Shown here: positions 1,396 through 55,364 of the stretch, piece after piece
Numbering within the stretch: the stretch's first letter is position 1
How the letters are laid out: every line of letters starts with the position of its first letter
IMG/VR virus record: IMGVR_UViG_3300008267_000009
Coordinates: 1 to 64,000 of that record
Length of the DNA: 64,000 nucleotides
Origin: a virus
Direction: 5' to 3' (one strand)
Translations under genes and position numbers: made by a program
The notes under the pieces: generated by a model
The model's input: only the letters and a program-made list of their open reading frames with translations
Databases searched by the model: none
Told to the model about the DNA's origin: nothing

Positions 1396-1418
1396 TTGAC
1401 TGAAATATATAGTACAAT
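1396..1418 (+). promoter_or_regulatory. Probable leaderless promoter (-10 TACAAT)
   Basis: TACAAT at 1413-1418 ends six bases before the ATG at 1425, the spacing seen for other leaderless genes in this window. TTGACT (1396-1401) is only 11 bases upstream of it, so it cannot be its usual -35. An alternative pairing is TTGACT with TAGATA (1418-1423, spacer 16), but that would start transcription inside the gene. Confidence 0.4.
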
Positions 1419-1424
1419 AGATAT

Positions 1425-1532
1425 ATGGAAAAGATCCCAGGATATAAGCAGACTCCACCAGATTGGTGTGATGATTGCAATGCTGCTCCAGGGGGAGAAT
1501 GTCCAGATTGTGGATGTACTCACAATTGTTAA
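1425..1532 (+). CDS. Cys-rich miniprotein (35 aa)
   Basis: Begins MEKIPGYKQTPPDWC. It has six cysteines: C-x2-C (WCDDC), then C-x2-C-x-C (CPDCGC) and a final Cys with a His before it (THNC). This is enough to bind one or two zinc ions. No SD is visible and the -10 box TACAAT ends six bases before the ATG, so the message is probably leaderless. A longer frame at 1396-1662 overlaps it but runs through the tRNA and has no start signal. Function unknown. Confidence 0.6.
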   Translation: MEKIPGYKQTPPDWCDDCNAAPGGECPDCGCTHNC

Positions 1533-1561
1533 AAAGCGGGAACCGAATACGCTAATCCTTT

Positions 1562-1636
1562 GGGGATATAGCTTAATCTGGTTAAAGCATTTGTCTTATA
1601 TACAAACGATTCTGGGTTCAAATCCCAGTATCCCTA
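1562..1636 (+). tRNA. tRNA-Ile (anticodon UAU)
   Basis: A complete cloverleaf folds by eye. The acceptor stem is 1562-1568 with 1629-1635 (one G-U pair), the D arm is GCTT/AAGC with GG in the loop, and the anticodon stem TTTGT/ACAAA (1590-1594, 1602-1606) holds loop CTTATAT. The T arm is CTGGG/CCCAG with loop TTCAAAT. U33 precedes anticodon TAT and A37 follows. The discriminator base is A, as for Ile. CCA is not encoded (ACTA follows). Bacteria usually read AUA with a lysidine-modified CAU anticodon, so a UAU anticodon is uncommon. Confidence 0.9.
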
Positions 1637-1644
1637 CTAAAGTC

Positions 1645-1674
1645 TTGACAGTGAAATTTTGATAATGTTATAAT
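1645..1674 (+). promoter_or_regulatory. Consensus sigma-70 promoter of the deoC operon
   Basis: TTGACA (1645-1650) and TATAAT (1669-1674), both perfect, are separated by 18 bases. Transcription would start near 1681, just downstream of the tRNA, and give a leader of about 65 bases. This leader contains two six-G runs separated by TC (1681-1695) and then a very AT-rich stretch before the SD (AAGGA) of the next gene. Confidence 0.75.
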
Positions 1675-1747
1675 TCCATAGGGGGGTCGGGGGGTCAGCA
1701 AATCAACAAATAACAAATATTTAATATATATAATATATAAGGATAAT

Positions 1748-4503: not shown

Positions 4504-4585
4504 CTAGCCAAAATACCTCTCTACCCATTGCATCTGTAACATACATTGCAGATCCTTCATATTCTATTTTTTCAGGCTCACACAT
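4472..4585 (-). CDS. Short protein (37 aa) overlapping its neighbours
   Basis: Begins MCEPEKIEYEGSAMYV and ends GRPESTDE. It overlaps the end of the glycosyltransferase-like gene by eight bases and the start of the next gene by 32. The frame fills what would otherwise be a gap in a tightly packed operon, and its composition is protein-like, but there is no domain match. It may be a real leader peptide or a chance frame. Confidence 0.4.
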   Translation of the reverse strand: MCEPEKIEYEGSAMYVTDAMGREVFWLDAGRPESTDE

Positions 4586-5759
4586 TTTGAAACCATTTCT
4601 TAATTATAGGGCTTTCAGTTGTTTCTAAATACTCTATCATGCTTTCAGGGTTATTATCTGTATAAATATTTTTAACCTCATGGTCCCATCTAGCAGACTG
4701 GTTTGAATATATTAACCAGTCCTGACTTTTGTCTGGATAAAATATAATTTGTTGGGTTCCTTTATCTGCATACATAGCATTTAAAAAGTTACTTCCAACT
4801 ATTCCAACAATACACTCAGCTTCAGTAACAGATTTAATCTGATCCATCATATTAATGTCTTCATTATAAAAAATTTCAAATCCTTTAGATTCCATATAGT
4901 CATTTAATTTATCTGTATTTGAAATTGCTCTATCGCTATAGAGTTTAGTGTTTCTAGCTATGAATATTTTTTTTCCAGGAATGGTTCTACTTATAAGACC
5001 GCTTTCGGCAAAATTTCTTTTTAAAATCTCAAAAGAATCTGAGTACAGAAGTAAAGTAGGTTGTCCAAATGTAATGATTTGATAAGATAGCTTAAAGGCT
5101 AAGCTTTCGTGTCTTGTAGGAAAGACTCTTTTTACTCCAGATAGCCCAGTATTGTTTGACCAATGAATGTAGTTAGTTGTATATGTCTCACTGTCGTTAG
5201 CAGGCTCAAATCCCATGTCGGTATAATAAAATACATAAGCTGAGTCTGCAGATATTACTTTATTAAACTTAGAGTCTGTACACTCATAATCAATTTCATA
5301 AAAATTTAAAAAATCAAGCCAATATCTCAAAGGTTCAGTGTTTATGTCTTTCGCCTGTTGAGCAGTCATTAAAAACGTTTTATATATTTTATCTTCAGTA
5401 ATCATGCTTTCTCTGGCATTAAAAACAACTTTAAATTTTTCATTATTTTCTTTTAGCGTAAGAATTATTGGCATAATTTCAAGCATGTCGTGAAAATATT
5501 TTTTTGTAATTGGTATTGTAAGTATAGCTCCATCGTAATGTTCTTCTTGCTTATTATTAAATTCACCAACCATAGGAATCATTATTCCATTAAACTGATG
5601 TCTATAATTTATTACAGGATTTTTTACTTTTACATAAAACCCAAATTCTCCGTAAGGCTTAACATCCTCAACTTGCTCTAAAGATCTTATTTCTTCAAAA
5701 AAGGCTTCTCTTACTTCTGGATGAGTTATTGTTATTCCTTTAATTGGACCAGCAGCCAC
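4578..5759 (-). CDS. GT61-like glycosyltransferase
   Basis: A 393-residue protein whose C-terminal third (about 263-345) matches the pattern of the DUF563/GT61 glycosyltransferases: IFIARNTKLYSDRAISN, then KGFEIFYNEDINMMDQI, then AECIVGIVGSNFLNAMY and TQQIIFYP. In the family these words surround the sugar-nucleotide site. The N-terminal part (to 160) is not recognised. GTG start (5759) with AAAGGGG six bases upstream, overlapping the previous stop (TAGTG). Such enzymes build capsule or O-linked glycans; here it may glycosylate phage virion proteins or the host surface. The motif match is by eye. Confidence 0.6.
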   Translation of the reverse strand: MAAGPIKGITITHPEVREAFFEEIRSLEQVEDVKPYGEFGFYVKVKNPVINYRHQFNGIMIPMVGEFNNKQEEHYDGAILTIPITKKYFHDMLEIMPIILTLKENNEKFKVVFNARESMITEDKIYKTFLMTAQQAKDINTEPLRYWLDFLNFYEIDYECTDSKFNKVISADSAYVFYYTDMGFEPANDSETYTTNYIHWSNNTGLSGVKRVFPTRHESLAFKLSYQIITFGQPTLLLYSDSFEILKRNFAESGLISRTIPGKKIFIARNTKLYSDRAISNTDKLNDYMESKGFEIFYNEDINMMDQIKSVTEAECIVGIVGSNFLNAMYADKGTQQIIFYPDKSQDWLIYSNQSARWDHEVKNIYTDNNPESMIEYLETTESPIIKKWFQNV

Positions 5760-6606: not shown

Positions 6607-7593
6607 ATGCAAATATCATTCTCTACGCCTAAAATTAACTTAACTCAAAATACTGGTTATGGCTATGCTAGCTGGAATATTATACAATCTTTGCAAAAAT
6701 TAGGGCATCAAACACCATTTCAAGATTACCGTGCTCCAGTACAATTAAATTTTGCACAGCCATTTCAACATAAACTTCATAAAAATCAATACCAAATTAG
6801 TTATACACCTTGGGAATCTACAGTAGTTCCAAAAACATGGTTTCCAATGGTAAATTATTGTGATGAAGTCTGGGCTACATCAGATTGGTGTGCAAATGTT
6901 TTTGAAGATAATGGAATGAAAAATGTAAAAGTTTATCCTCATGGAATTAGTCCAGCATGGAAGCCTAAAAAAAGACAAGAGTCTGATGTTATTAAATTTT
7001 TGCATGTTGGCGAGCCAGCTCCTAGAAAAGCGGGACAGATGGTTGTGAATGCATTTGTTTCTTTATTTGGTAATAACCCAAAGTATAGTTTAACTATAAA
7101 AGCATATAGAGAAAACACAACAAGAGTTTTTAATAATTTTATAGATAAAGAAATAATTGGTTTGCCAGACAAAATGTATAATAATATAAAGGTTATTACC
7201 GAAGACATGTCTGAAGAAGAATTGGTTAGGTTGTATCACGATCACGATGTTTTAGTTTATCCAAGTTACGGTGAGGGATTTGGATTTATACCGCTTCAAG
7301 CCTTAGCTACTGGTATGCCAACTATATGTACTGGTGGATGGGCACATTACTTTAAATTTTTAGGACCACTTGTTTTAAAATCAACTTTACAAGATTCAAA
7401 ATTTTTTAATCTTCCTGGTAAAGTATATGAACCAAACTATCAACACCTACTTGAGCTTATGAGAGATGTTACTCAAAATTTTAAAGCATATTCTGGATAC
7501 TACTATAAACAATCTGAAGAAATACATAATGAATATAATTGGATCCAGTTGACTAAGAATAGCTTTGATCCAATTTTTAAAAAATTTAAATAA
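6607..7593 (+). CDS. GT4-like glycosyltransferase
   Basis: A 328-residue GT-B type transferase of the group 1 (GT4) kind. N-terminal half contains TGYGYASWNI (15-24) and DEVWATSDW (86-94), both typical of this group. The C-terminal half has FLHVGEPAPRKAG (131-143) and the nucleotide-sugar motif YPSYGEGFGFIPLQALATGMP (218-238). In the usual E-x7-E motif the second Glu is replaced by Gln here (E223, Q231). It lies between the lysozyme and ribonucleotide reductase genes. Probable donors are nucleotide sugars; the acceptor is unknown and could be a virion protein, modified DNA or the host surface. Confidence 0.8.
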   Translation: MQISFSTPKINLTQNTGYGYASWNIIQSLQKLGHQTPFQDYRAPVQLNFAQPFQHKLHKNQYQISYTPWESTVVPKTWFPMVNYCDEVWATSDWCANVFEDNGMKNVKVYPHGISPAWKPKKRQESDVIKFLHVGEPAPRKAGQMVVNAFVSLFGNNPKYSLTIKAYRENTTRVFNNFIDKEIIGLPDKMYNNIKVITEDMSEEELVRLYHDHDVLVYPSYGEGFGFIPLQALATGMPTICTGGWAHYFKFLGPLVLKSTLQDSKFFNLPGKVYEPNYQHLLELMRDVTQNFKAYSGYYYKQSEEIHNEYNWIQLTKNSFDPIFKKFK

Positions 7594-20183: not shown

Positions 20184-20687
20184 ATGTCTGTACAAAAAGT
20201 AAAAATACCTTATAACGCTGAACTATCAGTAAAAACTCTGTCGGTAGCAGAAGAATTTGGTGTTAATGGTTCCGCCACACTAGGCGGAACTGTTAACCTT
20301 ACTGGAACTATGAATACTGGTAATGGAACATTAAATTTTTCAGATGGACCTCAGTCTAAACAAGGCGTTCCTTCTATTACTAAAATAAATAAGGTTTATT
20401 CAAATTATACTCTTTCTTCTTTAGACGAAAGAGACTCTATAATTGAAATGTCATTAAAGGTTGCTGGAACACTAACTATTCCAGCAGACACACCTTCTCT
20501 AACATTTCCAATAGGAACAACTATAGATGTTATTCAAACCAATTCTGGTCAAATTACTATAGGTAGTGCTTTTGGAGTTAATCTTAATGCTACCCCAGGA
20601 TTAAAAATAAGAAGTCAGTGGTCAATTGCCACTCTATTAAAACGGGATGCTAACACATGGTTAGTATTCGGAGATCTTACGGCTTAG
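20184..20687 (+). CDS. Small fibre protein (167 aa)
   Basis: Residues 10-50 contain the same short beta-repeat type as the large shaft gene (LSVKTLSVAEEFGVNGSATLGG, in two parts), followed by a compact C-terminal beta domain (TLTIPADTPSLTFPIGTTIDV). Strong SD GGAGGAG. Probably a fibre tip or cap. Confidence 0.6.
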   Translation: MSVQKVKIPYNAELSVKTLSVAEEFGVNGSATLGGTVNLTGTMNTGNGTLNFSDGPQSKQGVPSITKINKVYSNYTLSSLDERDSIIEMSLKVAGTLTIPADTPSLTFPIGTTIDVIQTNSGQITIGSAFGVNLNATPGLKIRSQWSIATLLKRDANTWLVFGDLTA

Positions 20688-20695
20688 GAGTATAA

Positions 20696-22357
20696 GTGGG
20701 AAAGAAATCTGGTAAGAAGTCAGCAGCAGCAGGCGATTTTGAAAAGCCGTTGCCACCACTTAACCCTGTAGCAACAGATGTTGGAACAAATAGACTTTTT
20801 AATAATGGAGCCGCAACAGTAAGCTTTACAGTAGATCCATTAAGTACTGTTCCAACAAGCTTTACAGTAAGATCTACTCCAGGAAGTTTTACTGGTGAAG
20901 GATCGGCAAGCCCAATTACAGTTGTAGGACTTCAAAGTAATGTTAATTATACTTTTAAAGTTTTAGCAACAAATGCTAATGGTAACTCAGATGAATCTGT
21001 ATCTTCAAATCAAATTTTAGCAACTACAGTTCCTGGTATTCCAAGAACTCCAGCAGTTTCGTCAACTGTAGCAGATCAAGATGTTGTATCTTGGACAGCA
21101 CCAGCAAATGACGGTGGAAAAGCTATTTCTAGTTATAGAATTACATCTAGTGATCCAAACACTCAGCCACCTTCAGATGGAACACCAGGTCCAGTTTATA
21201 ATAACGTAACATCACCATACACAATCTCAGAGGTTGGTGGAACTTCACAGTCTTATACAGTAGTAGCAATTAATGCTAACGGAACTTCTGTTGGAGCTAC
21301 AACAAATCAAGTAACAACATTCTTTAGCCCACCGTCATTCTTCGGCCCACCAGGATTCTTTGCCCCACCAGCATTTTTCTTGCCACCAACTTTCTTCGTT
21401 CCACCTCTTTTCTTTACGCCACCAGATTTCTTTGCACCACCACGCTTCTTTGCACCACCACGTTTCTTTTCTCCTCCAGGGTTCTTTGCCCCTCCAGGAT
21501 TCTTTGGCCCACCGTTTTTCTTTGGACCCCCAGCATTCTTTGGTCCTCCAGGATTCTTTAGCCCACCAGGGTTCTTTGCCCCGCCAGCGTTTTTTAGCCC
21601 ACCACGCTTCTTCGGCCCACCGTTCTTCTTCGGCCCACCAGGGTTCTTTGGTCCTCCAGGATTCTTTGCACCACCACGTTTCTTCGGCCCACCAGGGTTC
21701 TTTGGTCCTCCAGGATTCTTTAGCCCACCAAGATTCTTTAGCCCACCACGTTTCTTTGGTCCTCCAGGATTCTTTAGCCCACCAAGATTCTTTAGCCCAC
21801 CAAGATTCTTTAGCCCACCAAGATTTTGTATTCAGGAGGATACTCCTGTACTCACAACGGACGGGTACAAGAAAGCAAAAGATATTGTTATAGGAGACAC
21901 ACTAGCTACGCTAGACTTTGACGATATAACATACGGAGCAGACAATTGTTCGTTTGGAGTAGTTACAGCAGAATGTTCAGAAATAGTAAATTCATGGTCA
22001 GTTAATGAGTTAAAAAATCATAAACTATTAAATTCTAAAATAACTAATATTTTAACTGAATCTCATAATAAAACTATGGTTATTAACGATGATCAAGATA
22101 AGAGATTTTCATTAAAAGAAGATGTTTTAATTTATAAAAATAATAAATATGTTATTGTTACAGTTGAAAACTTATCTGTAGGAGATTCTTTAGTTATTTA
22201 CTCAGATGAATCTATCAATATTGTTCCAATAACTAGTTTAAATATTATAAAAGAGAAAACAAATACAATTCTTTTCTATAGAGAGCCATACGGCATGATT
22301 ATTGCTGGAGGTATGCTTGCATACAATGGATGCCCCATCCATATGTTGACTAACTAG
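20696..22357 (+). CDS. FN3 - (FFxPPx)28 - Hint protein
   Basis: GTG start with TTAGGAG upstream. Order of parts in 553 residues: two fibronectin III-like domains (about 20-110 and 112-208); 28 tandem hexapeptides F-F-x-P-P-x (209-377); and a Hint/intein-like domain (378-546). The Hint begins with Cys378 (CIQEDTPVLTTDGYKKAKDI, VGD), has an LTESH word like the block-B T-x-x-H, and ends with GMIIAGGMLAYNG-C. Hint domains cleave or splice peptide bonds via the first Cys, so this may release or attach the Pro-rich arm. Only seven residues follow C546, so true splicing would leave a tiny extein. It lies at the end of the fibre block, just before five oxygenase genes. Confidence 0.75.
   Translation: MGKKSGKKSAAAGDFEKPLPPLNPVATDVGTNRLFNNGAATVSFTVDPLSTVPTSFTVRSTPGSFTGEGSASPITVVGLQSNVNYTFKVLATNANGNSDESVSSNQILATTVPGIPRTPAVSSTVADQDVVSWTAPANDGGKAISSYRITSSDPNTQPPSDGTPGPVYNNVTSPYTISEVGGTSQSYTVVAINANGTSVGATTNQVTTFFSPPSFFGPPGFFAPPAFFLPPTFFVPPLFFTPPDFFAPPRFFAPPRFFSPPGFFAPPGFFGPPFFFGPPAFFGPPGFFSPPGFFAPPAFFSPPRFFGPPFFFGPPGFFGPPGFFAPPRFFGPPGFFGPPGFFSPPRFFSPPRFFGPPGFFSPPRFFSPPRFFSPPRFCIQEDTPVLTTDGYKKAKDIVIGDTLATLDFDDITYGADNCSFGVVTAECSEIVNSWSVNELKNHKLLNSKITNILTESHNKTMVINDDQDKRFSLKEDVLIYKNNKYVIVTVENLSVGDSLVIYSDESINIVPITSLNIIKEKTNTILFYREPYGMIIAGGMLAYNGCPIHMLTN
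21320..21826 (+). repeat. 28 tandem 18-base repeats encoding FFxPPx
   Basis: 507 bases made of 28 perfect 18-base units plus one codon; each encodes Phe-Phe-x-Pro-Pro-x. Variable position 3 is Gly, Ala, Ser or rarely Leu, Val, Thr; position 6 is Gly (10 units), Arg (9) or others. Bases are richer in C and G than the flanks. Related unit order (SPPR and GPPG runs) points to recent duplication, so unit number may vary between relatives. Confidence 0.9.
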
Positions 22358-22374
22358 ATATTAAATGCTAAAGT
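22346..22374 (+). promoter_or_regulatory. Leaderless promoter TTGACT-17-TAAAGT
   Basis: TTGACT (22346-22351), 17-base spacer, TAAAGT (22369-22374), then six bases to the ATG at 22381. It lies across the end of the Hint-domain gene. Identical geometry to the promoter at 62147-62175. It gives the oxygenase run its own transcription start. Confidence 0.7.
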
Positions 22375-22380
22375 AGGAAT

Positions 22381-22995
22381 ATGAATAAAATAGAAATATT
22401 CCCAGGTATATGGAAATTTGAAAATGTTTTTGATAAGTCATTTGATGTAATAAATGAAATTGAAAAAGCCGTATCAAAAGGGGATTGCTCTTGGGCTAAA
22501 GCTCAAGTAGGACTAGAAGAAACAGATATAGAATATAGAGACTGTTATGATTTTAAGCTAAGCGATTTAGGAAAAGATCATAATATATATAAACATCTTT
22601 ATGAATCTCAAAAGCCTTATGTAGATGCATATTGCGATTATTACCAAATAAAAATGGGTTTTTGGGAATGGACTAATGTTGTTAAATATGGTCCAGGACA
22701 ATATTTTAAAGAGCATGCAGATCATGGATGGTCATATATATCTACAGTTTCATTAGTATCTTATCCAAATGACGACTATGTTGGAGGAGAATTAGCTTTT
22801 CCAAAATTAAAGATTTTTGAAAAACCAAAGGCAGGGGACTTATACATATTTCCTTCTACCTATTTGTTTTCCCACGTAGCAATGCCAGTAAGGTCGGGAA
22901 CTAAATATTCATTTGTAACAATGCTAGATTATAATGATGACACTCATACTGTAGAGTATGAAGAATATATAGATAGAAAGTATGGTATAAAATAA
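22381..22995 (+). CDS. 2-oxoglutarate/Fe(II) oxygenase, prolyl-4-hydroxylase-like (A)
   Basis: 204 residues. Iron triad H112, D114 (KEHADHGW) and H165 (FSHVAMPV), with K175 (SGTKYSFV) as the 2-oxoglutarate-binding base and the linking GGELAFP and KPKAGDLYIFPS words. These are standard for the double-stranded beta-helix of prolyl-4-hydroxylase-like enzymes, which couple 2-oxoglutarate decarboxylation to hydroxylation. First of five such genes, with its own leaderless promoter. Substrate unknown; a Pro-rich virion protein lies directly upstream. Confidence 0.85.
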   Translation: MNKIEIFPGIWKFENVFDKSFDVINEIEKAVSKGDCSWAKAQVGLEETDIEYRDCYDFKLSDLGKDHNIYKHLYESQKPYVDAYCDYYQIKMGFWEWTNVVKYGPGQYFKEHADHGWSYISTVSLVSYPNDDYVGGELAFPKLKIFEKPKAGDLYIFPSTYLFSHVAMPVRSGTKYSFVTMLDYNDDTHTVEYEEYIDRKYGIK

Positions 22996-23693
22996 TGTTT
23001 TCTCCAAATGCAGAGTACTTACATTACGGAATTGTTGTATATAGAGATGTTTTTACAAAAGAAATGGACCTTGTAAACAGACTAGAAAATTCTTTAAGTA
23101 AGAGCGAAGGTAAATATAAGTGGAATCAGTCTCAAACTGGTTATGCACATACAGATTTAAAATATAGAGATGCACACGATTTTAAAATTAAAAGAAATAG
23201 CGATGACAGTCTAATGCTATCAATGCAGTATGTTAATAAAGACAATAAAAAAGAGGCCGAAATAGAGTTAGAAAAAATTTGGGAAGACTCTTATAAAGCA
23301 CAGCTAAAGCCAGTTGAAGAATATCGTAATGCTTTTGGACTTGCCCCATTAAACTATTGGGAGTCATTTAACTTTGTTAAGTATGGACCAAACCAACACT
23401 TCCAGGTTCATTCAGATCACGGATACTCCTACATTTGTGTGCTTTCTTCTGTTGGATATATTAATGATGATTACGAAGGCGGAGAGCTCTTCTTTGATAA
23501 GTTTAACTTAAAGATTAAACCAAAAGCAGGAGATCTTTATTTATTCCCGTCTTCTTATATTTATTCTCATGCAGCAATGCCAGTAACAAGCGGAACAAAA
23601 TATTCAATTGTTACTATGCTAGATTATCTAGAAGCTCCACATACGCCAGACTATCGTGATATTGAAAAGAGATATACAGAAGGTTATGTATAA
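22995..23693 (+). CDS. 2-oxoglutarate/Fe(II) oxygenase (B)
   Basis: 232 residues. H139, D141 (QVHSDHGYSYI), H192 (YSHAAMPV) and K202 (SGTKYSIVTM), with GGELFFDKF and KPKAGDLYLFPSS. Close to enzyme A in both length and words (FVKYGPNQHF against VVKYGPGQYF), so A and B are probably recent duplicates. Start overlaps A's stop (TAATG). Confidence 0.85.
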   Translation: MFSPNAEYLHYGIVVYRDVFTKEMDLVNRLENSLSKSEGKYKWNQSQTGYAHTDLKYRDAHDFKIKRNSDDSLMLSMQYVNKDNKKEAEIELEKIWEDSYKAQLKPVEEYRNAFGLAPLNYWESFNFVKYGPNQHFQVHSDHGYSYICVLSSVGYINDDYEGGELFFDKFNLKIKPKAGDLYLFPSSYIYSHAAMPVTSGTKYSIVTMLDYLEAPHTPDYRDIEKRYTEGYV

Positions 23694-24405
23694 AATAAAA
23701 GCTTATGTTTCTTCTGAAGATGCTGCTACATTGTCTCCTTTACAGGCAAAACGTGAGTGGATGGAGCAAACATATGACAGACATGCGTATACTTGTTTCC
23801 CAGTAACTTTAACAAATACTCTTGGTTGGTCATTATCTTTTCCAGAAGACATAACTTTTGTTTGGGATGGAAAATCAGATTCTAGTAAAGATCACGTAAA
23901 AATTCTTGCTGGACATAAATATTGCTACACAGAAAGAGCTAATGCAACTATAAGTTTTAAAACAGGATTAATTTTTAAAACTGAAGAAAATGTTAGCCTA
24001 CTTGGAATGCCAGCCCCTAATTACTTTTTAGATGGGGCTCAACCTTTTACAACAGCAATAAGCACTTCTTTTTATACTGCAGAATTTCCAGTAGCGTGGA
24101 GAATAACTAAGCCGTATACTCCAATTACAATTCCAGCAGGACACCCAGTAATATCAGTAATACCAGTGTCACTTGGCGAAATCGAGCTTTCAGAAATAGA
24201 GATGCTAAATAAAAACACTATGCCTATTTCTCCATATGCAGATCAATATAATGAAACAGAACATATTAAATATGTTGCAAAGCTTGCAGAAGAAAACAAG
24301 TGGACTAATTTTTATCGTGATGCTGTAGATTATTTAGGAAATAAATTGGGTAAACATGAAGTTAAAAGTTTAAAACTTAAGGTGGTAAATAATGCCAAAA
24401 ATTAA
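23686..24405 (+). CDS. DUF6065-like protein (239 aa)
   Basis: Begins MYKIKAYVSSEDAATLSP. Contains LQAKREWMEQTYDRHAYTCFPVT, then NTLGWSLSFPEDITFVWDG, and later VAWRITKPYTPITIPAGHPVISVIP. This order (a Tyr-Cys-Pro start region, GW..P..i.f.WDG, then P-x-I-x-AGhPV) resembles proteins of the family I recall as DUF6065, which have no known function; the family name is from memory. Start chosen at 23686 with AGAAGG just upstream; overlaps the previous gene by eight bases. Sits inside the oxygenase operon. Confidence 0.5.
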   Translation: MYKIKAYVSSEDAATLSPLQAKREWMEQTYDRHAYTCFPVTLTNTLGWSLSFPEDITFVWDGKSDSSKDHVKILAGHKYCYTERANATISFKTGLIFKTEENVSLLGMPAPNYFLDGAQPFTTAISTSFYTAEFPVAWRITKPYTPITIPAGHPVISVIPVSLGEIELSEIEMLNKNTMPISPYADQYNETEHIKYVAKLAEENKWTNFYRDAVDYLGNKLGKHEVKSLKLKVVNNAKN

Positions 24406-25132
24406 ATTTGGTTCTGCAAGACCTTATAATAATGAAAATGAGCACAAGTCTTTAGAGCCAGGGCCAGCTAAAAATTTTATGCCAAATTGGTGGAAAGATG
24501 CAACAAAATATTGGGTTGATGATAACGGAGATCCAATAATGGCAGCATACAATAAAGATGATGAGCTAGAAAAATCTTTAGGGTTTAAATCTTGTCCAGC
24601 ACTCCTAGATGTTTTTTCAACAGGATATGTTTTAAGAACTCCGACAGACATAATGTTTGCCCAGTATGATGGAGAGCCACATGTAATTATTGATCCAAAA
24701 TATAAAGATTTTTGTGAAGCAAGAAGTAGCATGCCACAGTTTGAATATCCTCATGGATATAGCAAAAAGCATTTTCATTGGTGGCCTAATTGGGGAATAC
24801 AAATGCCAGATGGATATAGTGCTTTAGTAACTTCTCCTCTCAATAGAAATGATCTACCATTTTTAACAGTTAATGGAATAATAGATAGCGATAGGTATAC
24901 TTTGCCAGGCTTAATGCCATTCTTTTTAAAAGAAGGGTTTTCTGGTTTAATTCCAAAAGGAACACCGTTTGCTCAGATATTTCCGATAAAGCGTGAGGCT
25001 TGGACTTCAGAGATGGTATACTATAGTAATGACGAAATGTACGATAGGCACATGTCAATCGTATCAAAATTTAGAGTTAAATTTGGCGGAGTTTATAAAA
25101 AAACAACTTGGGTTAAAAAAAGCTATGAATAA
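24392..25132 (+). CDS. Paralogue of the preceding unknown protein (246 aa)
   Basis: Begins MPKIKFGSARPYNNENEH. Shares order of words with the neighbour: GYVLRTPTDIMFAQYDGEP, then WGIQMPDGYSALVTSP, and FSGLIPKGTPFAQIFPIKRE. This is a plausible duplicate fold of the previous protein, perhaps beta-sandwich or cupin-like. No catalytic motif recognised. Overlaps the previous gene by 14 bases and stands between oxygenases B and C, so a shared pathway is likely. Confidence 0.55.
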   Translation: MPKIKFGSARPYNNENEHKSLEPGPAKNFMPNWWKDATKYWVDDNGDPIMAAYNKDDELEKSLGFKSCPALLDVFSTGYVLRTPTDIMFAQYDGEPHVIIDPKYKDFCEARSSMPQFEYPHGYSKKHFHWWPNWGIQMPDGYSALVTSPLNRNDLPFLTVNGIIDSDRYTLPGLMPFFLKEGFSGLIPKGTPFAQIFPIKREAWTSEMVYYSNDEMYDRHMSIVSKFRVKFGGVYKKTTWVKKSYE

Positions 25133-25141
25133 GGAGAAAAA

Positions 25142-25894
25142 ATGGACAATATAATTTCTTTCGATAGTGACGTTTTGTTTAAAAGCGCTCACGACGATGA
25201 TATCATTCAAAATCATGATTCTTTAGAAGAGGGTAAGCATATTAGAACTGCTAGAAAGTCAATCACCCCTTCAGGTTATTTTGGGTCTGGTCCAGAGATG
25301 ATAGGCGAAATAGAAAATTTTCTTACAGAAGAAGAGTGCGACTATCTAGAAAATTTTGCCAGAAACAATAAGATCTGGGACGTAACCGAATCTCATTATA
25401 ATGAAAATGGCACAATTATTTATGATCACAGACCATGGGAAAATAGAGTAGCTACACTAAACACCTTAATGAAAGCAGATCAAAAAGTTGTAGACATGCT
25501 TCGTGAAGTAATAGCAAGATTTAAACCAGTTATAGAAGATTTTTTTGGTGTTGTAGAAGTTGAGCCAACAAACCCAGCTATAGTTAGATGGCCAGTAGGA
25601 ACTTTTCAATTTCCACATGCAGATAAAGAATTACACGAGGGTCCAGATGCAGGAACTGAAAACGATTTCCCTTGGTATGACCTAGGAACAATATTTTATT
25701 TAAACGAAGATTATGAAGGAGGGGAGCTTCATTTCCCATTACAAAAAATTGCATTCAAGCCAAAAAGAAGAGCGGTATATTTTTTCCCAGGAGACAAAAA
25801 TTATATTCACGGAGTAGATAAGGTTACAAAGGGAACAAGATATACATCTCCATGGTTTTGGACTATTAAACAATTAACAAAGGAAGACAAGTGA
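25142..25894 (+). CDS. 2-oxoglutarate/Fe(II) oxygenase (C)
   Basis: 250 residues, SD AAGGAG. H159 and D161 (FQFPHADKEL), H223 (NYIHGVDKV) and R233 (KGTRYTSPWFW) as the 2-oxoglutarate base. GGELHFPLQKI and KPKRRAVYFFPG words are intact. An N-terminal segment (60-75, LTEEECDYLENFA) is the usual start of prolyl-4-hydroxylase folds. Confidence 0.85.
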   Translation: MDNIISFDSDVLFKSAHDDDIIQNHDSLEEGKHIRTARKSITPSGYFGSGPEMIGEIENFLTEEECDYLENFARNNKIWDVTESHYNENGTIIYDHRPWENRVATLNTLMKADQKVVDMLREVIARFKPVIEDFFGVVEVEPTNPAIVRWPVGTFQFPHADKELHEGPDAGTENDFPWYDLGTIFYLNEDYEGGELHFPLQKIAFKPKRRAVYFFPGDKNYIHGVDKVTKGTRYTSPWFWTIKQLTKEDK

Positions 25895-26631
25895 TTAGTC
25901 AAGAAATTTTAGATAAATATCCAACAATTAAAGAGTGGAAAGACGACGTCTTTACTGTTGAAAATTTTATTTCCGAGCAAGAAGCAGAAGCTATGATTAA
26001 ATATTTAGAATCATTAGTTGAAAGTGGAAGACTTAAGTGGAATCAAATTTCTTTTTATGACTCTTTTGCAATGGGATTCTGGGACTCAGATCCTACTCTG
26101 CCAGAGTTTGGCCTACCAGAAGACTACTTTAACAGATTAAAGTTTAAATTTAAAAAGTGTGGCGAAGATATATTTGGACATAAATTTGCTGAAATTAGTT
26201 ATCATGCTCAAAAGTGGGTAGAAGGAGCTTTCGCAGATTTTCATTCAGACAATTCAAAAGACGGTAAGCCAACAGCGTTTGAAAGAAGTAGATATGCTGG
26301 ATTCTTATACTTAAATGATGATTTTGATGGAGGCATATTAAACTTTCAACATTATGATATAGCAATAAAGCCAAAGGTTGGTTTATATGCAATATTTAAA
26401 GGCGGACATGGTAACGAACACGAAGTCACTCAAGTCAAAAATACTAGAAGAGATAGATATACAATAGGATCTTTTTGGGATGACGCTAGAATGGAATATA
26501 CAGACGAACAAAGGCAAAGGTGGGCTGATGAATTAGCTGCAACTAGAAAAGAACAAGATTTGTCTTACGATCAATGGGCAAAAGACAAAGCTGCTGGAAA
26601 TGCTCCAATTTATAAGGGTAAGGGTGAATAG
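25891..26631 (+). CDS. 2-oxoglutarate/Fe(II) oxygenase (D)
   Basis: 246 residues from a GTG start overlapping the previous stop (GTGA). H118 and D120 (FHSDNSKDGK), H177 (GNEHEVTQV) and R189 (RRDRYTIGSFW). GGILNFQHYD and KPKVGLYAIFKG replace the usual words. A long charged C-terminal tail (EYTDEQRQRWADELAATRK) sets it apart. N-terminal domain has FISEQEAEAMIKYLESL. Confidence 0.8.
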   Translation: MISQEILDKYPTIKEWKDDVFTVENFISEQEAEAMIKYLESLVESGRLKWNQISFYDSFAMGFWDSDPTLPEFGLPEDYFNRLKFKFKKCGEDIFGHKFAEISYHAQKWVEGAFADFHSDNSKDGKPTAFERSRYAGFLYLNDDFDGGILNFQHYDIAIKPKVGLYAIFKGGHGNEHEVTQVKNTRRDRYTIGSFWDDARMEYTDEQRQRWADELAATRKEQDLSYDQWAKDKAAGNAPIYKGKGE

Positions 26632-26633
26632 TA

Positions 26634-27332
26634 ATGAATAATGTTAATGTTAAAGATTTGACAGAAAATCTTACAATTTTTGCTGATAAAATATTTGTTT
26701 TTAAAAATGTTATAAATTTAATGGAAAGTTGGCCTAGAGAGCTAGAAGAGTTAGATGCAAGATTTGAAGATGAAAAAACATTTAATATAAAAGGAAACCC
26801 ATTAAAGCAGCTAGGTCCTTGGTTGCCATGGCCTGCAAACGATGACCCAGAGTATTTTTATGGTAGAACTAAAACAGGGCATTTTATATTTAATCATTCT
26901 TCTGAGCCATCTGGAGGAGATTTAATTGCCTATGATCTTGTAGAGGTTATGAGAAAAGCAGCAGAAGAATTGGCTCAAAAATATTTTAGTAGATTAGATA
27001 TAAAGGACATACCTCATCTTCCTAGTACCTTTGAAATTAAAGAATACAACACTGGCTCAGACATGGGGCCACATTTTGATGATTTCCCAGGAGACGATAA
27101 TCAAACAATATTATCTGCTGTTATTTATATTAATGATGACTATGAAGGTGGAGAATTAGCGTTTCCTCAACATAATATTACAATTAAACCAGAATCTGGA
27201 TGTTTAATATTTTTCCCTTCTACTCCAGATTATATTCATCAGGCAAAAGTTGTTACATCTGGTAAAAAATATTGTGTTCCACTATTTTTCTATAAAAACC
27301 CTCCAGTATCAATTTCTGACGATAAGGGCTAA
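26634..27332 (+). CDS. 2-oxoglutarate/Fe(II) oxygenase (E)
   Basis: 232 residues. H147 and D149 (GPHFDDFPGDD), H202 (DYIHQAKVV) and K211/K212 (SGKKYCVPLFFY). GGELAFPQHNITIKPESG is intact. Last of the run and two bases after gene D. The substrate may differ from A and B, since the region before the His motif is distinct (MESWPRELEELDARF). Confidence 0.82.
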   Translation: MNNVNVKDLTENLTIFADKIFVFKNVINLMESWPRELEELDARFEDEKTFNIKGNPLKQLGPWLPWPANDDPEYFYGRTKTGHFIFNHSSEPSGGDLIAYDLVEVMRKAAEELAQKYFSRLDIKDIPHLPSTFEIKEYNTGSDMGPHFDDFPGDDNQTILSAVIYINDDYEGGELAFPQHNITIKPESGCLIFFPSTPDYIHQAKVVTSGKKYCVPLFFYKNPPVSISDDKG

Positions 27333-27337
27333 AGTAA

Positions 27338-29044
27338 ATGAGCTACCAGTCAAAAATTATGCAAGAAAATCCAATAGGATTTTGGAGACTTGACGAGAGT
27401 AGCGGAACTACAGCATATGATTTTTCAGGATGCTCAAATAACGGAACTTACTCTGGAACCTTTAACTATAATATATTGCCTCTAGTTTCTGGTGGCACAA
27501 GAGGAACTTTAATCACAAACTCTTCTTCTATATCTCTTCCAGTAACTAAAAACTATTATGCTGTTACAGCAACAGAAGGTCTAGCAACTAAATATACAAG
27601 CGATAACGATTTTACGCTTGAAGCCTGGATTTATCCAATGTTTTATGGATCTTCTAACGATATACAAAAAATATTTGGTTCTTCTGAAACTGGAATATTT
27701 TGGCAAAAAGGAAATATTATTTTTAAGGTTGGATCTGAATCCGTAGAGTATAGCCTGCCATATATTAAAAAATCAATTTACTTAGTTGCAGTATATACAA
27801 CCAGGTCTATTGTAATTTATATTGATGGTATACAGGCAGCCTCAAAAACTTTATCTAATTTTAAATTTTCTGCAACAAATTTTGAGCCATCAATAGGTCC
27901 TTGTAATACTGCACAGGATTCTTTTATAGTTGATGCTCCAGCAATATATAGATATGCATTAACAGATGCTGCTATAAAAAAACATTATATAGATGGTAAT
28001 ATCACATCTCCAGCAATTCAAGTTGTATTTCCAGACGAAGGAGTTTTGTTCTCTGGTACTGATGCAAATATAAGATCTACCTATGAGTACTCTTATCCAA
28101 TTAATAAAAAATGGGAAGACATTTTATCTTCTAACACTTATTATGATAATGAATCTAGGTACGTTTCTTTTTATTCTGATTTATCTGGAGCACAAACATT
28201 TGTATATCAAGACTCTGTTTTAATACCAAATAGTTTAGGTCTAACTACATCTAAAATTGAATGGAGAGATTCCGAATTAGTTTCTGTTCGTTCAAGCGTA
28301 GATGGCATTAACTGGCAGGTCTGTACTAATGGTAGCCCAGTACCTCAGTATAAAATTGGATCATTTTCTTCAGAATATAAACTGTATCTTGAAATTACAA
28401 TGACAACAACAGATGTTGCAAAATATAAGCCTAGGCTATCATTTTTTTGCGTAAGTTTTTATTCAGATAGAACTTTATACGCAGACAACTACGGAGACAA
28501 AATTACTTCAACTTCTGATTATAATTTATCTTCAATCAGGTACCCAGTATTGTCAAGAAATTATATGAATGGAATTAGGCCCTTATCAGACAAATTTACA
28601 ATAAACACCCTATCAGATATAAAATCAATAGAAATGATTTACACTCCTACCGCAACTATCGGAAATGGGTTGGTAAATGGATTATCATGGAATAATAGCG
28701 GAGCAATAACAAAAAGTAATATAAGCAAGATATACATCAATAACGTAGATATTTCAACCCAATCAAATATATCATCATATTTAATCCCAGAGCAGCCACA
28801 CCACATAGTGGTTGTTTTTACATCACCAATTACAGGGGCCATAGACCTAAATGTTGGTGGCGGACAGAACTTATATAAAAATATAGCAATATACCAAAAA
28901 GAAATTACTGGCAGTATTTGTGACACCCACTTTACCTTGTATACTGGGCAACCTCAGTCTAGCTTAACAGAGCCAGTCGTAACCCTGACAGATAGTGAGC
29001 TAAAATACTATAACAATGACTGGGTGGTTATCCAAAGCGTATAA
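27338..29044 (+). CDS. LamG/concanavalin-like adhesin (568 aa)
   Basis: The N-terminal domain (ENPIGFWRLDESSGTTAYDFSG, then DFTLEAWIYP, and APAIYRYALTDAAIKKHY) is the LamG/pentraxin-type lectin fold common in phage and bacterial adhesins, residues about 8-230. The rest is beta-rich and unassigned. It lies immediately downstream of the oxygenase run, perhaps the tail end of the adhesion module. SD weak. Confidence 0.7.
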   Translation: MSYQSKIMQENPIGFWRLDESSGTTAYDFSGCSNNGTYSGTFNYNILPLVSGGTRGTLITNSSSISLPVTKNYYAVTATEGLATKYTSDNDFTLEAWIYPMFYGSSNDIQKIFGSSETGIFWQKGNIIFKVGSESVEYSLPYIKKSIYLVAVYTTRSIVIYIDGIQAASKTLSNFKFSATNFEPSIGPCNTAQDSFIVDAPAIYRYALTDAAIKKHYIDGNITSPAIQVVFPDEGVLFSGTDANIRSTYEYSYPINKKWEDILSSNTYYDNESRYVSFYSDLSGAQTFVYQDSVLIPNSLGLTTSKIEWRDSELVSVRSSVDGINWQVCTNGSPVPQYKIGSFSSEYKLYLEITMTTTDVAKYKPRLSFFCVSFYSDRTLYADNYGDKITSTSDYNLSSIRYPVLSRNYMNGIRPLSDKFTINTLSDIKSIEMIYTPTATIGNGLVNGLSWNNSGAITKSNISKIYINNVDISTQSNISSYLIPEQPHHIVVVFTSPITGAIDLNVGGGQNLYKNIAIYQKEITGSICDTHFTLYTGQPQSSLTEPVVTLTDSELKYYNNDWVVIQSV

Positions 29045-52205: not shown

Positions 52206-55200
52206 ATGCCTAGATTATTTCAAAAGCGTGGTGGTACATGGTCAGAAATTCTTTCTGTATTTCAAAAACAGGGCGGTACATGGGTTGAAATATTAAATAT
52301 ATTTCAAAAAATTGGTGGTACATGGACTAAAGTTTTTGCAGCCGCAAAAATACCAGGCAATACAGTAGCACCAACAATAACTGGAACAGGATATTTATAT
52401 AGCACTTTAACAAACAATAGCTTAGGTACATGGACAAATTCTCCAACATCTTATACTAGACAATGGAGAAGGGGAACTCCTCCAGCAGGAGGCGGAGAAC
52501 CTCAAGGTTATTCTAATATAACAGGAGCAACATCTAGCACATATGTAACAACAGCTGCAGACGATGGTAAATACATAATTTGCCAAGTAACTGCAACAAA
52601 TGCTTTGGGCTCTAATTCAGCAGCATCAAATCCAATATATGTTAGCAAATATAGTCCAGTAGCAAATGGAATTTATACGATAACTGGATCGCCAGTTGTT
52701 GGTGGAACATTAACTGCAGTTGAGCAAGTCGGTACATGGAAAGCAACAACAACAAATACTGGGGATACATCACCAGATACATTTGTTTATACTTGGTCTA
52801 GAATAGTATCAGGTATTACACAAACACCTCCACTACAAGAAGGTACTTCTTCAAGCTATTTAATTCAGCCTTCAGACAACAATACCACTATAGCAGTTGC
52901 AGTAACTGGAACAAATACTGGTGGATCCGCTACAACTGCTTATTCTGTTGTAGTAAATGTTTCATCTGTTTATTCTTTTTCAATGGGTAAAACTTTACAT
53001 ATGAGCACAAACTGCTTTGTGTCTCTAGATAATCCTAGTGCTAGCTTTACAACTCTACCAAATGGATATTCTATTCCAGTATCTCTTCAAGATTTTTGGA
53101 ATCCAGTTGGATATAAATGGTCTAACGGAGAAGAGTTTGTTTTGCATTATGATGGATATAAATTAAATCAATCAACAACAGCTTTCAGAGCAACATGGCA
53201 AATGAGATTTTATACAAATCAAAATTATGCAGATTTTAAAATAATTAGATGGGGAAGCAGTACAGGGCCTGGAAGTAAAACTGTTGCTATGTATAAAGAC
53301 GACGCTGTATTTGGAACAGCGGTTGCAGGCCCAATTGCTCAGTATATAGCAGGACAAACATTTAGAGTATACTATAGTGGAAGTCAGCCTACTCAATCTG
53401 TAGGCTTTACTGAAATTGTTACAGACTCAATGGTTCCAATATCAATAACTGCTGGTAGCGCAGATGACGGCTACTTTTCTGTTGTTACATCAACAAATCA
53501 ATATACTAAGCCATTTATATCTGGATTAACATCTTCTGGAACTGGCACAAGTATATCTACTAATTCATTTACTACTGGCGGAGGATATAATGGGTTTAAT
53601 TATGTTATTAGAACAGGTTCACACTTTGGAACACTTGTAGCTTCTGGATCATCTTTTGCTGGTTCATATTCTCAATCTGGACTTACAAGTGGAACAACAT
53701 ATTATGTAACACTAACACCATTTAATGCATATTCTCAATTAGGTGATTCAGTTCAATTTAGTCAAGCAACAACAAATGCTCCTGGACCATTTAGCGTAAA
53801 TAGTGGAAGTAAGGCTATTCCTTCTGGCGGATACAGAACAGTTACTGTAGGATGGACAACTTCTACAAATGGTCCAAACTATGAAGTTCAACTAGAAGGA
53901 AGTGATGATGGTACTACATGGTCTGTAGTGACTGGTACATTTGAAACAAGAACTGTACGGCAAACATTAAATTTATTATCTTCACCATATTTTACATCAA
54001 ACTCTACAACATTTACAAACGTTGATTATCGATATTTTTATCGTGCAACAGCAAGAGCACGAAACTCGTCCCTTGATTCAGAAAATGCTGCTTACTCAAA
54101 TGGTGGAACATCTACTTCATTAGCATATTATGAAATACCAGGAGTTGCTCCAGGAACCCCAACATTAGGAACCATAACTGTAACAAAAACTACAGCTTCT
54201 ATACCTTATACATTTCCATCAAATACTGGATCAAATACAATTGACTGGATTCAATTTTCATTAGATGGCATTTCGTTTAATAATGATTTTACTAGCCCAT
54301 ACGATTTTACTGGGTTGACATCTGGTACAACGTACACTCTTTATTATAGAGCATTAAATTATGATAAGCTTTATTCAAGCACTTTAACTACTACATTTAC
54401 TACTACAGCAGCTAAACCACCAGGGTTTGTACAATCAATAACAGCTGGCACTAAAACCAATACAAGTATAGCTTGGAGCTGGACTGCTCCAACTGTAACA
54501 ACATCAAATAATGCTGCTACTGGATATGAATATGCTCACACACAAAGTACAGCAACTCCAACATCATGGACAGCTCAAACTGGAACAAGCGTTACTGTTT
54601 CTAATTTAACAAAAAATACAACATACTATATGCATGTTAGAGGCACAAATGCTGATGGTCCTGGACCGTCGACATATAATTCTGCCTCAACAAATAACGA
54701 TAGCTTTTATACGGTTTCATTTAACGTTAATGGCTCTGGAGGAACTAATCCTGCATCTGTTACTCAGACTACCGCAGGAGGATCAGTAACCCTTGCGGCA
54801 GCTCAAACAAGAACTGGTTATACTTTTGGCGGATGGAATACTAATACTTCTGGCACTGGAACAAATTATAATGCTGGATCTTCATATACACCAACTGCAG
54901 ATATAACACTTTATGCAAAGTGGACGTTGGCATTTGTTACGCCAGCACCAACAACACCACCAAGCTTTATATTTTCAAGAGGATTAAATGGAGCTACATC
55001 TTCAACTAGACGTAACTGGGGATGGAACGTATCAAGTGGTATGGGAAGTTACAGTTATGTTATATATACTTTAGAGTGGCATAATGTTAACTCAACAACG
55101 CCTCCTTCAACAACAAGAACCCCAGACGCACTACTTACATTCGGATCTTCTGGTTCATCAGCTCCAGTATCAAATGGACAGACATATAACTTGAGCGGAA

Positions 55201-55364
55201 ATTCAACTCCAAACTATAGAACAATGGCAAGGGGTTCTTCTTATGCAGGAACAAACGGAACAACTATTACAGCCTCAACCAATTTTTCATGGGCTAGAGC
55301 AATATGTAGGGTAACAGGAACAAACGGAACTACCTATCCAAGTGGCTATACAGGATTCTTATAA
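52206..55364 (+). CDS. Multi-domain tail adhesin with FN3 and InlB-like repeats (1052 aa)
   Basis: Starts with three copies of FQK-x-GGTW-x-E/K-[IV] (3-45: FQKRGGTWSEILSV, FQKQGGTWVEILNI, FQKIGGTWTKVFAA). Several FN3-like domains follow (SGLTSGTTYYVTLTPFNAY, VSNLTKNTTYYMHVRGTNADGPGPS), then an InlB B-type repeat near 840-905 (YTVSFNVNGSGG, TGYTFGGWNTNTSGTGTNYN, ITLYAKWT). Such repeats serve as surface adhesins. Likely a tail-tip host-binding protein. Confidence 0.7.
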   Translation: MPRLFQKRGGTWSEILSVFQKQGGTWVEILNIFQKIGGTWTKVFAAAKIPGNTVAPTITGTGYLYSTLTNNSLGTWTNSPTSYTRQWRRGTPPAGGGEPQGYSNITGATSSTYVTTAADDGKYIICQVTATNALGSNSAASNPIYVSKYSPVANGIYTITGSPVVGGTLTAVEQVGTWKATTTNTGDTSPDTFVYTWSRIVSGITQTPPLQEGTSSSYLIQPSDNNTTIAVAVTGTNTGGSATTAYSVVVNVSSVYSFSMGKTLHMSTNCFVSLDNPSASFTTLPNGYSIPVSLQDFWNPVGYKWSNGEEFVLHYDGYKLNQSTTAFRATWQMRFYTNQNYADFKIIRWGSSTGPGSKTVAMYKDDAVFGTAVAGPIAQYIAGQTFRVYYSGSQPTQSVGFTEIVTDSMVPISITAGSADDGYFSVVTSTNQYTKPFISGLTSSGTGTSISTNSFTTGGGYNGFNYVIRTGSHFGTLVASGSSFAGSYSQSGLTSGTTYYVTLTPFNAYSQLGDSVQFSQATTNAPGPFSVNSGSKAIPSGGYRTVTVGWTTSTNGPNYEVQLEGSDDGTTWSVVTGTFETRTVRQTLNLLSSPYFTSNSTTFTNVDYRYFYRATARARNSSLDSENAAYSNGGTSTSLAYYEIPGVAPGTPTLGTITVTKTTASIPYTFPSNTGSNTIDWIQFSLDGISFNNDFTSPYDFTGLTSGTTYTLYYRALNYDKLYSSTLTTTFTTTAAKPPGFVQSITAGTKTNTSIAWSWTAPTVTTSNNAATGYEYAHTQSTATPTSWTAQTGTSVTVSNLTKNTTYYMHVRGTNADGPGPSTYNSASTNNDSFYTVSFNVNGSGGTNPASVTQTTAGGSVTLAAAQTRTGYTFGGWNTNTSGTGTNYNAGSSYTPTADITLYAKWTLAFVTPAPTTPPSFIFSRGLNGATSSTRRNWGWNVSSGMGSYSYVIYTLEWHNVNSTTPPSTTRTPDALLTFGSSGSSAPVSNGQTYNLSGNSTPNYRTMARGSSYAGTNGTTITASTNFSWARAICRVTGTNGTTYPSGYTGFL

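Follow-up and report, generated by a model that had tools for sequence, protein, structure and literature searches.

What do the 2-oxoglutarate (2OG)-Fe(II) oxygenases of phages, an abundant enzyme family without an assigned substrate, act upon? The question is raised by the IMG/VR virus record IMGVR_UViG_3300008267_000009, in which a tail-type protein with a phenylalanine-proline repeat array lies directly upstream of five such enzymes, here called OX1 to OX5. The window, by which we mean the whole stretch of DNA that was analysed, comprises bases 1-64000 of this 100,563-base record. We infer, at a probability of about 0.6, that the block is a virion-modification cassette in which the oxygenases act as hydroxylases of peptidyl residues, most likely of proline, with the neighbouring Phe/Pro array as their substrate. 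Strong circumstantial support for the array as substrate comes from linkage recovered in both search directions, from the joint presence and absence of array and oxygenases in related phages, and from the prolyl-hydroxylase-type fold of OX2. As such, the array offers a concrete candidate substrate for this enzyme family.

The array protein and the oxygenase cluster

The array protein (20696..22357, + strand, GTG start, 553 amino acids) consists of an fn3-type N-terminus (PF00041 in Pfam, E 2.9e-8), the array itself (21320..21823, +; residues 209-376) and a degenerate Hint-like C-terminus. An initial annotation, made from the letters of the window, had counted 28 FFxPPx hexapeptides, ten of them with Pro-Pro-Gly, and both counts hold; the 28 tandem units are uninterrupted, ten ending in PPG and nine in PPR. 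A three-unit codon pattern matches 26 times, with overlaps, in the window and never in 100 shuffles, and a 14-base unit pattern occurs 28 times in the whole 100,563-base record, every time inside the array gene. Between adjacent units the codons for F1, F2, P4 and P5 show 32 synonymous and no non-synonymous changes; hence it is the peptide and not the DNA that is conserved, and the array residues are under purifying selection. The gene is located between tail-fibre and portal genes, with tail-fibre-type genes directly upstream of it and portal, protease and capsid genes after the block, a context from which the array protein is a tail-type protein and presumably part of the virion.

OX1 (22381..22995, +; PF13640, 1.8e-10) starts 23 bases after the array gene and is followed by OX2 (22995..23693, +; 3.3e-13), by genes for a DUF6065 and a phrog_7084 protein, and then by OX3 (25142..25894, +; 7.6e-7), OX4 (25891..26631, +; 4.4e-8) and OX5 (26634..27332, +; 3e-13). 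As the initial annotation had stated, all five keep the HxD...H iron-binding motif and a basic 2OG-binding residue, which is Lys in OX1, OX2 and OX5 and Arg in OX3 and OX4; each of the five exceeds the PF13640 cut-off, and the whole record has nine matches to this family, seven of them exceeding the cut-off. Among 605 distinct relatives (62, 200, 137, 96 and 110 for OX1 to OX5 respectively) the iron ligands are nearly invariant, HxD..H being kept in 62/62 relatives of OX1 and 96/96 of OX4, and the basic residue is Lys in most relatives of OX1, OX2 and OX5 and Arg in those of OX3 and OX4. Lysine as the ligand of the 2OG 5-carboxylate is the prolyl-4-hydroxylase (P4H) type, and arginine occupies this position in PHD2 and others.

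OX2 is predicted with high confidence (pLDDT 93.8) to adopt the double-stranded beta-helix fold of the P4H type. Chlamydomonas P4H with bound (Ser-Pro)5 heads its structural matches (Z 20.4, rmsd 2.3, 173 residues), tied within 1 Z with others; the list also includes a Trichoplax prolyl hydroxylase (Z 20.3), the P4H enzymes of Pseudomonas putida and Bacillus anthracis, PHD2 and the P4H of the chlorovirus PBCV-1 (5c5t, Z 17.8), and 48 of the 50 structure entries listed are prolyl hydroxylases by title. By sequence, the B. anthracis P4H is the first neighbour of both OX2 and OX5 in the PDB. NCBIfam returned weak matches only, to models of PKHD-type Fe2+-dependent dioxygenases and far under the cut-off.

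Linkage of arrays and oxygenases across phages

A scan of IMG/VR with a three-unit FFxPPx pattern yielded at least 120 stretches, chosen by the repeat alone; the samples in this and the following searches include near-duplicates and are not independent. Oxygenase open reading frames (ORFs), 339 in all, are contained in 98 of the 120 stretches listed, and among the 106 array genes with 800 bases of downstream sequence, 48 have a same-strand oxygenase within 150 bases. When the whole records of the other 22 stretches were searched, PF13640 was found in 19 (18 above the family cut-off, L026 only under it), and the three records without a match, L029, L064 and L128, are fragments of 8.5, 13.5 and 9.3 kb. 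As a control, an arbitrary 17-base pattern retrieved 39 viral contigs, none of which has oxygenases. A second scan, for FFPPFFP arrays, gave at least 113 viral loci, with seven further, already sampled loci not recounted; oxygenases are present in 83 of the 113 listed and absent from the stretch read in 30. Two of these loci gave no array ORF, 78 of the remainder have at least 2.5 kb of downstream sequence, and 69 of those 78 have a same-strand oxygenase within 2.5 kb. Among the nine exceptions, PF13640 is found elsewhere in five records and is missing from one of 38 kb, one of 48 kb and two short ones.

The reverse search leads to the same association. With a profile of the five oxygenases, the best 80 of 536 loci, which are the closest orthologues, include 67 with a same-strand F/P array upstream; 31 of the 80 have less than 3 kb of upstream DNA, and among the 49 with at least 3 kb the array is present in 48. 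In the lone exception, L227, the sequence opens within the Hint tail of a truncated array gene. Co-occurrence in related phages, which the initial annotation had proposed as a check, is therefore found from both directions, and the contrary case that it had named, oxygenases without a proline-rich fibre, is represented by distant 2OG enzymes of cyanophages and not by the close orthologues sampled. Other groups of loci have conserved oxygenase orders of their own, 1-2-3-5-4-5 in ten loci and 1-3-2-4-5 in nine. L227 also encodes, at 1399-1710 (+), an aspartyl/asparaginyl hydroxylase-type protein (PF05118, 2.6e-13), a third type of hydroxylase in an array locus.

Relatives with a similar fn3-type N-terminus carry FFxPPx or FFPP/FFP arrays in the same place, reaching up to 30 prolines per 60 residues, and Phe accounts for 0.313 and Pro for 0.305 of the residues across 169 distinct arrays. 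The position of the array within the protein varies: at the L179 locus one array ends a 797-residue protein and another a 280-residue protein, in L021 the array precedes a tail-spike chaperone domain (Peptidase_S74, PF13884), and in L482 it is located between domains. Arrays look phage-bound: 257 Gb of prokaryote genomes contained only 11 matching stretches, with an oxygenase in none of the 11 in the stretch read. The initial annotation had proposed that the oxygenases hydroxylate the prolines of the fibre and had cited Pro-Pro-Gly as the classical substrate. Linkage in both directions, joint presence and absence and the OX2 fold argue for the first proposal; the second fails as a general rule, as Gly occupies position 6 of the unit in 46% of cases, PPG is absent from 18 of 114 FFxPPx arrays, and Pro-Gly is absent from 40 of 50 FFPP-type arrays. 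An analogy with collagen as the common basis was rejected because Gly, and with it X-Pro-Gly, is not required across arrays.

Relatives matched by portal protein allow presence and absence to be compared. Of the best 80 of 581 portal homologues, the already sampled L041 was left out, and 27 of the remaining 79, those with at least 9 kb upstream, were tabulated; their portals are 77-100% identical, and in three of them sequence beyond this was read before scoring. All 12 array-bearing relatives have at least five PF13640 matches in the record, whereas 13 of the 15 array-less ones have none, G075 has one and G088 two (Fisher 5.8e-8, a value that ignores phylogeny). Array absence was read in 9-10 kb upstream for all 15, and further DNA was read for seven (G075, G079, G081, G082, G086, G088 and G090). 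The array-less relatives retain the fibre genes, the LamG gene, the GT4 gene and sometimes phrog_7084; what is absent is the oxygenase cluster. In two relatives without array or oxygenases (L347:3659-5368 and L341:14141-15703) an fn3-like stretch is followed by a Gly-rich or other domain that replaces the array.

A portal tree was built from 36 loci with at least 5 kb upstream together with the window. L297, with one oxygenase, and L286/G088, with two at other places in the record, were counted as without the cluster; L308, L322 and L325 were assigned an array manually on the strength of additional upstream DNA; and in L255, L274 and L300, read for 6-8 kb upstream, oxygenases are present but no array was seen in the stretch read. 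On this tree the oxygenase label needs at least four changes, and a pair test restricted to the 28 rows that reach 9 kb shows the array changing alongside it in 4/4 independent pairs. The association extends to a second lineage of six records (G060, G124, G125, G126, G128 and G131; 70-205 kb) that carry arrays and oxygenases and in which no portal relative was detected at E 0.001, with the proviso that the records may be incomplete. Five loci of this lineage (L033, L039, L042, L067 and L100) have the order array, reversed OX3-type, OX2-type, and in L106 (record G060) the oxygenases lie elsewhere in the record.

Substrate and target residue

If the array is the substrate, the oxygenases would hydroxylate its residues while the array protein is being made, and an extremely hydrophobic FFxPPx or FFPP segment would become a rod carrying hydroxyl groups and suitable for an exposed structure of the tail. 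The several paralogues, in their conserved order, would serve different array positions or different steps. Phage particles would then contain hydroxylated repeat proteins whose hydroxyl groups require O2 and 2-oxoglutarate, and some phage genes regarded as metabolic would really be genes of particle maturation.

Arrays of tyrosine and proline bear on the nature of the target. In G079, a 78-kb relative that lacks PF13640 and whose portal is 82% identical, the slot of the array protein is occupied by a PASTA-domain protein bearing a YYAAPQ array. A complete scan for Tyr arrays returned 33 stretches, of which ten are of the tail type and were counted, nine are out of frame, 12 belong to other proteins and two have no ORF; the ten records amount to about seven types, L359, the locus in G079, and L363 having the same protein and L351 and L373 being near-identical. 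Eight of the ten lack PF13640, and the other two, near-identical records with YYNPPV units, have three matches each. In two of the eight, L357 and L364, the fn3 parts of the Tyr-array proteins are 50-54% identical to those of F-array proteins in the oxygenase-bearing L220 and L228. The contrast between Tyr and Phe is not absolute, since G088 has a YSNPPPYDNTY array, outside the scan pattern, with an oxygenase a few hundred bases away.

In all eight oxygenase-free Tyr records a glycosyltransferase adjoins the array. Three of these enzymes were tested against Pfam and belong to PF11397, an N-acetylglucosamine (GlcNAc) transferase family of the GT60 type, and the rest are each 55-100% identical to one of the three. 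Genes of this type beside a Tyr/Pro array and without an oxygenase cluster were seen in L340 (6746-7822, -), L349, L353, L357, L359, L363, L364, L367 and L378. In a search based on the transferase (the best 80 of 87 relatives), in each of the nine loci whose identity is 48% or higher, a Tyr/Pro array precedes the transferase by 4-751 bases and the stretch read contains no oxygenase. Among the other 71 a genuine aromatic/Pro array adjoins in seven, three of which share one array sequence, so the transferase family at large is not array-bound; 32 loci had been flagged, 16 of them (9 + 7) read as genuine arrays and 16 as phrog_7084-like or chance. A relative of the transferase is rare in F/P-array loci (2/120 FFxPPx and 6/113 FFPPFFP loci listed), and seven of these eight loci also have oxygenases, the eighth being L029, which lacks PF13640. 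According to the parts of the literature consulted, GT60 enzymes add GlcNAc to the hydroxyproline of Skp1, and other members act on Ser/Thr-rich proteins (PMC6939170, PMC8724618). The PF11397 transferase may be to Tyr arrays what the oxygenase cassette is to Phe arrays. Both sets of loci are accounted for most simply if the arrays are substrates whose hydroxyls are either made by oxygenases or supplied by tyrosine, and the same evidence leaves room for Phe as the oxygenase target. It is possible, and we suggest it tentatively, that aromatic-proline arrays are a general modification scaffold of phages, served by two unrelated enzyme types, 2OG hydroxylase clusters where they are Phe/Pro and a GT60-type transferase where they are Tyr/Pro; the outcome would be a hydrophilic, decorated tail bristle, hydroxyproline- or mucin-like, with paralogues directed at different positions and possibly at Phe too.

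Several points weigh against array hydroxylation by these enzymes. YYAPPV arrays keep Pro-Pro and yet lack oxygenases, a poor fit to a simple rule that Pro-Pro is the target. PF13640 is missing from one array record of 38 kb, another of 48 kb and five shorter ones (7.7-13.5 kb). Five of six cyanophages carry 7-11 distant 2OG matches without an array; the superfamily at large thus needs none. For PBCV-1, the one virus whose P4H was found discussed, virions are reported, in the portion of the source seen, to have no detectable hydroxyproline despite an active P4H (PMC7019647). The fold evidence covers OX2, the sole oxygenase modelled, and similarity of fold is no proof of which residue is targeted. 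Within one lineage, linkage in part reflects common ancestry, genes that adjoin can be exchanged as a unit even if neither product acts on the other, and the co-inheritance of neighbours is not fully separable from function; the portal tree supplies only four independent pairs (sign test p 0.125), with which significance is out of reach.

The alternative that survives best, in itself doubtful, is that the oxygenases act elsewhere, on host metabolites, cell-surface sugars, nucleic acid or other tail proteins, and that their adjacency to the array reflects an exchangeable tail-fibre module. Phage 2OG genes are usually regarded as auxiliary metabolic genes (PMC9602691, consulted in part), cyanophages have many of them without arrays, some flanking tail-fibre genes, and the block is gained or lost whole on the portal tree. 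Such a module does not readily explain why the link persists in the absence of a detectable common portal, in two array classes and in both search directions, or why array-less relatives keep the fibre genes, LamG and GT4 but not the oxygenase cluster; moreover, the fold of OX2 is that of peptidyl-prolyl hydroxylases.

It is very improbable that phenylalanine rather than proline is the main target, with hydroxylation of the ring or the beta-carbon converting the array to a Tyr-like or beta-hydroxy-Phe form. Within the array, Phe and Pro are equally invariant, and the distinction between Phe and Tyr separates the cases better than does Pro-Pro, oxygenases being lacking in 8/10 Tyr records and 3/120 listed FFxPPx stretches. 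However, this comparison ignores phylogeny and the ten Tyr records reduce to their few types; two of them carry oxygenases, the Tyr/Pro-type array of G088 has one close by, and Tyr could make hydroxylation for solubility unnecessary. The nearest folds and sequences to OX2 and the nearest sequences to OX5 are prolyl hydroxylases, and we know of no 2OG-Fe(II) protein phenylalanyl hydroxylase.

Less probable still is the initial annotation's proposal that the phage's own GT61 (4578-5759; PF04577, 2.4e-16) and GT4-type (6607-7593; PF00534, 6.9e-10) enzymes attach sugars to the hydroxyproline that the oxygenases produce, as in plant extensins: both genes exist and OX2 has fold kinship with an algal P4H, but these genes are some 13 and 15 kb away from the array gene, on its upstream side, GT4 homologues 51-56% identical occur in G079, G081, G088 and G090 without an F/P array or oxygenase cluster, so that GT4 is not tied to the oxygenases, and the transferase that does track arrays is of the GT60 type, above all with Tyr arrays that lack oxygenases.

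Neighbouring features and known systems

The C-terminal domain of the array protein (21827..22354, +, starting at Cys378), described in the initial annotation as a Hint domain, is Hint-like through its alignment to relatives and a degenerate copy: neither Pfam nor PHROGs detects a Hint domain in the window's protein, and in the alignment both the block-B TxxH and the terminal His-Asn are missing, the nucleophile at position 1 (Cys378) being present. Of five relatives tested in Pfam, four match Intein_splicing (2.9e-6 to 1.2e-3) and a sixth relative matches Hint_2, all under the curated cut-off. The position-1 nucleophile, block-B [TS]xxH and terminal HN/HD are kept together in 7/57 aligned rows; the rows were picked by a motif demanding C or S at position 1, so that 57/57 at that position holds by construction, they count the window's own copy twice, and a single automatic alignment served to assess block B. 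The C-termini of 173 distinct array proteins comprise 58 that are Hint-like, 91 with a complete short end and 24 that are other or incomplete. The domain thus appears dispensable and usually degenerate, and autoprocessing of the array protein is unlikely in this phage because the block-B and HN motifs are missing. Active Hint processing of the fibre was rejected as an explanation on these grounds and on the short tail found instead in 91/173 array proteins.

Directly upstream of the array gene lies a gene for a small tail/fibre-type protein (20184..20687, +) with matches to phrog_8780/phrog_16053 (minor tail, tail fibre) and homologues in 132 related loci (tblastn). Between OX2 and OX3 are the genes for the DUF6065 protein (23656..24405, +; PF19541, 1.4e-32) and the phrog_7084 protein (24392..25132, +; 3.3e-32). 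The model of the latter (pLDDT 88.4) resembles dUTPase over about half its length (Z 10.2 over 119 of 246 residues), and the protein has relatives in haloarchaeal tailed viruses such as HF1/HF2; a part of the DUF6065 and phrog_7084 proteins in the hydroxylation chemistry was considered and, for phrog_7084, is not supported, homologues being present in relatives without the oxygenase cluster (G079, G082 and G088). The block is closed by a LamG/ConA-like protein (27338..29044, +; PF13385, 6.4e-8), whose gene is also found in relatives without array and oxygenase cluster. Further downstream, a 1052-residue protein (52206-55364) with a List_Bact_rpt (Flg_new) repeat and a weak fn3 match is probably another surface or tail protein.

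Peptidyl hydroxylation as such is known; its use on a repeat protein in a phage, by a multi-enzyme cassette, would be new. No description of an aromatic-proline array with an oxygenase cassette was found among the titles and abstract openings listed from the open-licence PMC literature, where, in the parts seen, phage 2OG enzymes are treated as metabolic genes or in DNA repair (PMC9602691, PMC2984593) or as part of a capsule or secondary-metabolite cluster (PMC7824862), and the role of viral P4H is called cryptic (PMC9301287).

The closest phage comparison is with the 2OG oxygenases of cyanophages (phrog_61 and related), which belong to the same superfamily and likewise occur several to a genome, but which are 25-41% identical to OX1/OX2 among the matches listed and have no array in the records searched. 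The search covered nine named phages, six of them cyanophages, whose records contain distant 2OG or phrog_7084 relatives; PF13640 is present in eight, and no FFxPPx or FFPxFFP array was found in the nine. In S-MbCM7 (NC_023587.1 19514-20792 and 35898-38228) 2OG oxygenases directly flank tail-fibre genes, so the association of phage 2OG enzymes with tail fibres may extend beyond array loci. The large S-MbCM7 fibre measured has 4% Pro, and two large cyanophage proteins measured have about 4%. Phage NCTB (LT598654.1, about 101.0-103.7 kb) has neighbouring tail proteins of which two are annotated with inteins and two have collagen-like stretches.

Among cellular enzymes, the P4H proteins of B. anthracis and P. 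putida are among the nearest solved sequences to OX2 and OX5; they differ in being cellular and linked to EF-Tu by their entry titles, and to our knowledge neither is found beside a repeat protein. PBCV-1 P4H is likewise a virus-encoded enzyme of the P4H type, among the close folds to OX2, and acts on Pro-containing peptides; it is a single enzyme of a eukaryotic virus, with no linked repeat substrate mentioned in the portion seen (PMC7019647), as against at least five paralogues beside a repeat protein here. In algae and plants, P4H enzymes act on the Pro-rich repeats of hydroxyproline-rich, extensin-type glycoproteins of the cell wall, as we propose for the array, the units here being Phe-rich and the oxygenase phages having no supported glycosylation partner. 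Finally, in the Skp1 pathway of protists, as described in the parts consulted (PMC6939170, PMC8724618), a P4H and a GT60 enzyme act on one protein site, and both enzyme types are found beside phage arrays; they are for the most part divided between array types, the PF11397 transferase adjoining Tyr arrays without oxygenases in 8/8 loci and being rare in F/P loci (8/233), where it mostly occurs together with oxygenases (7/8).

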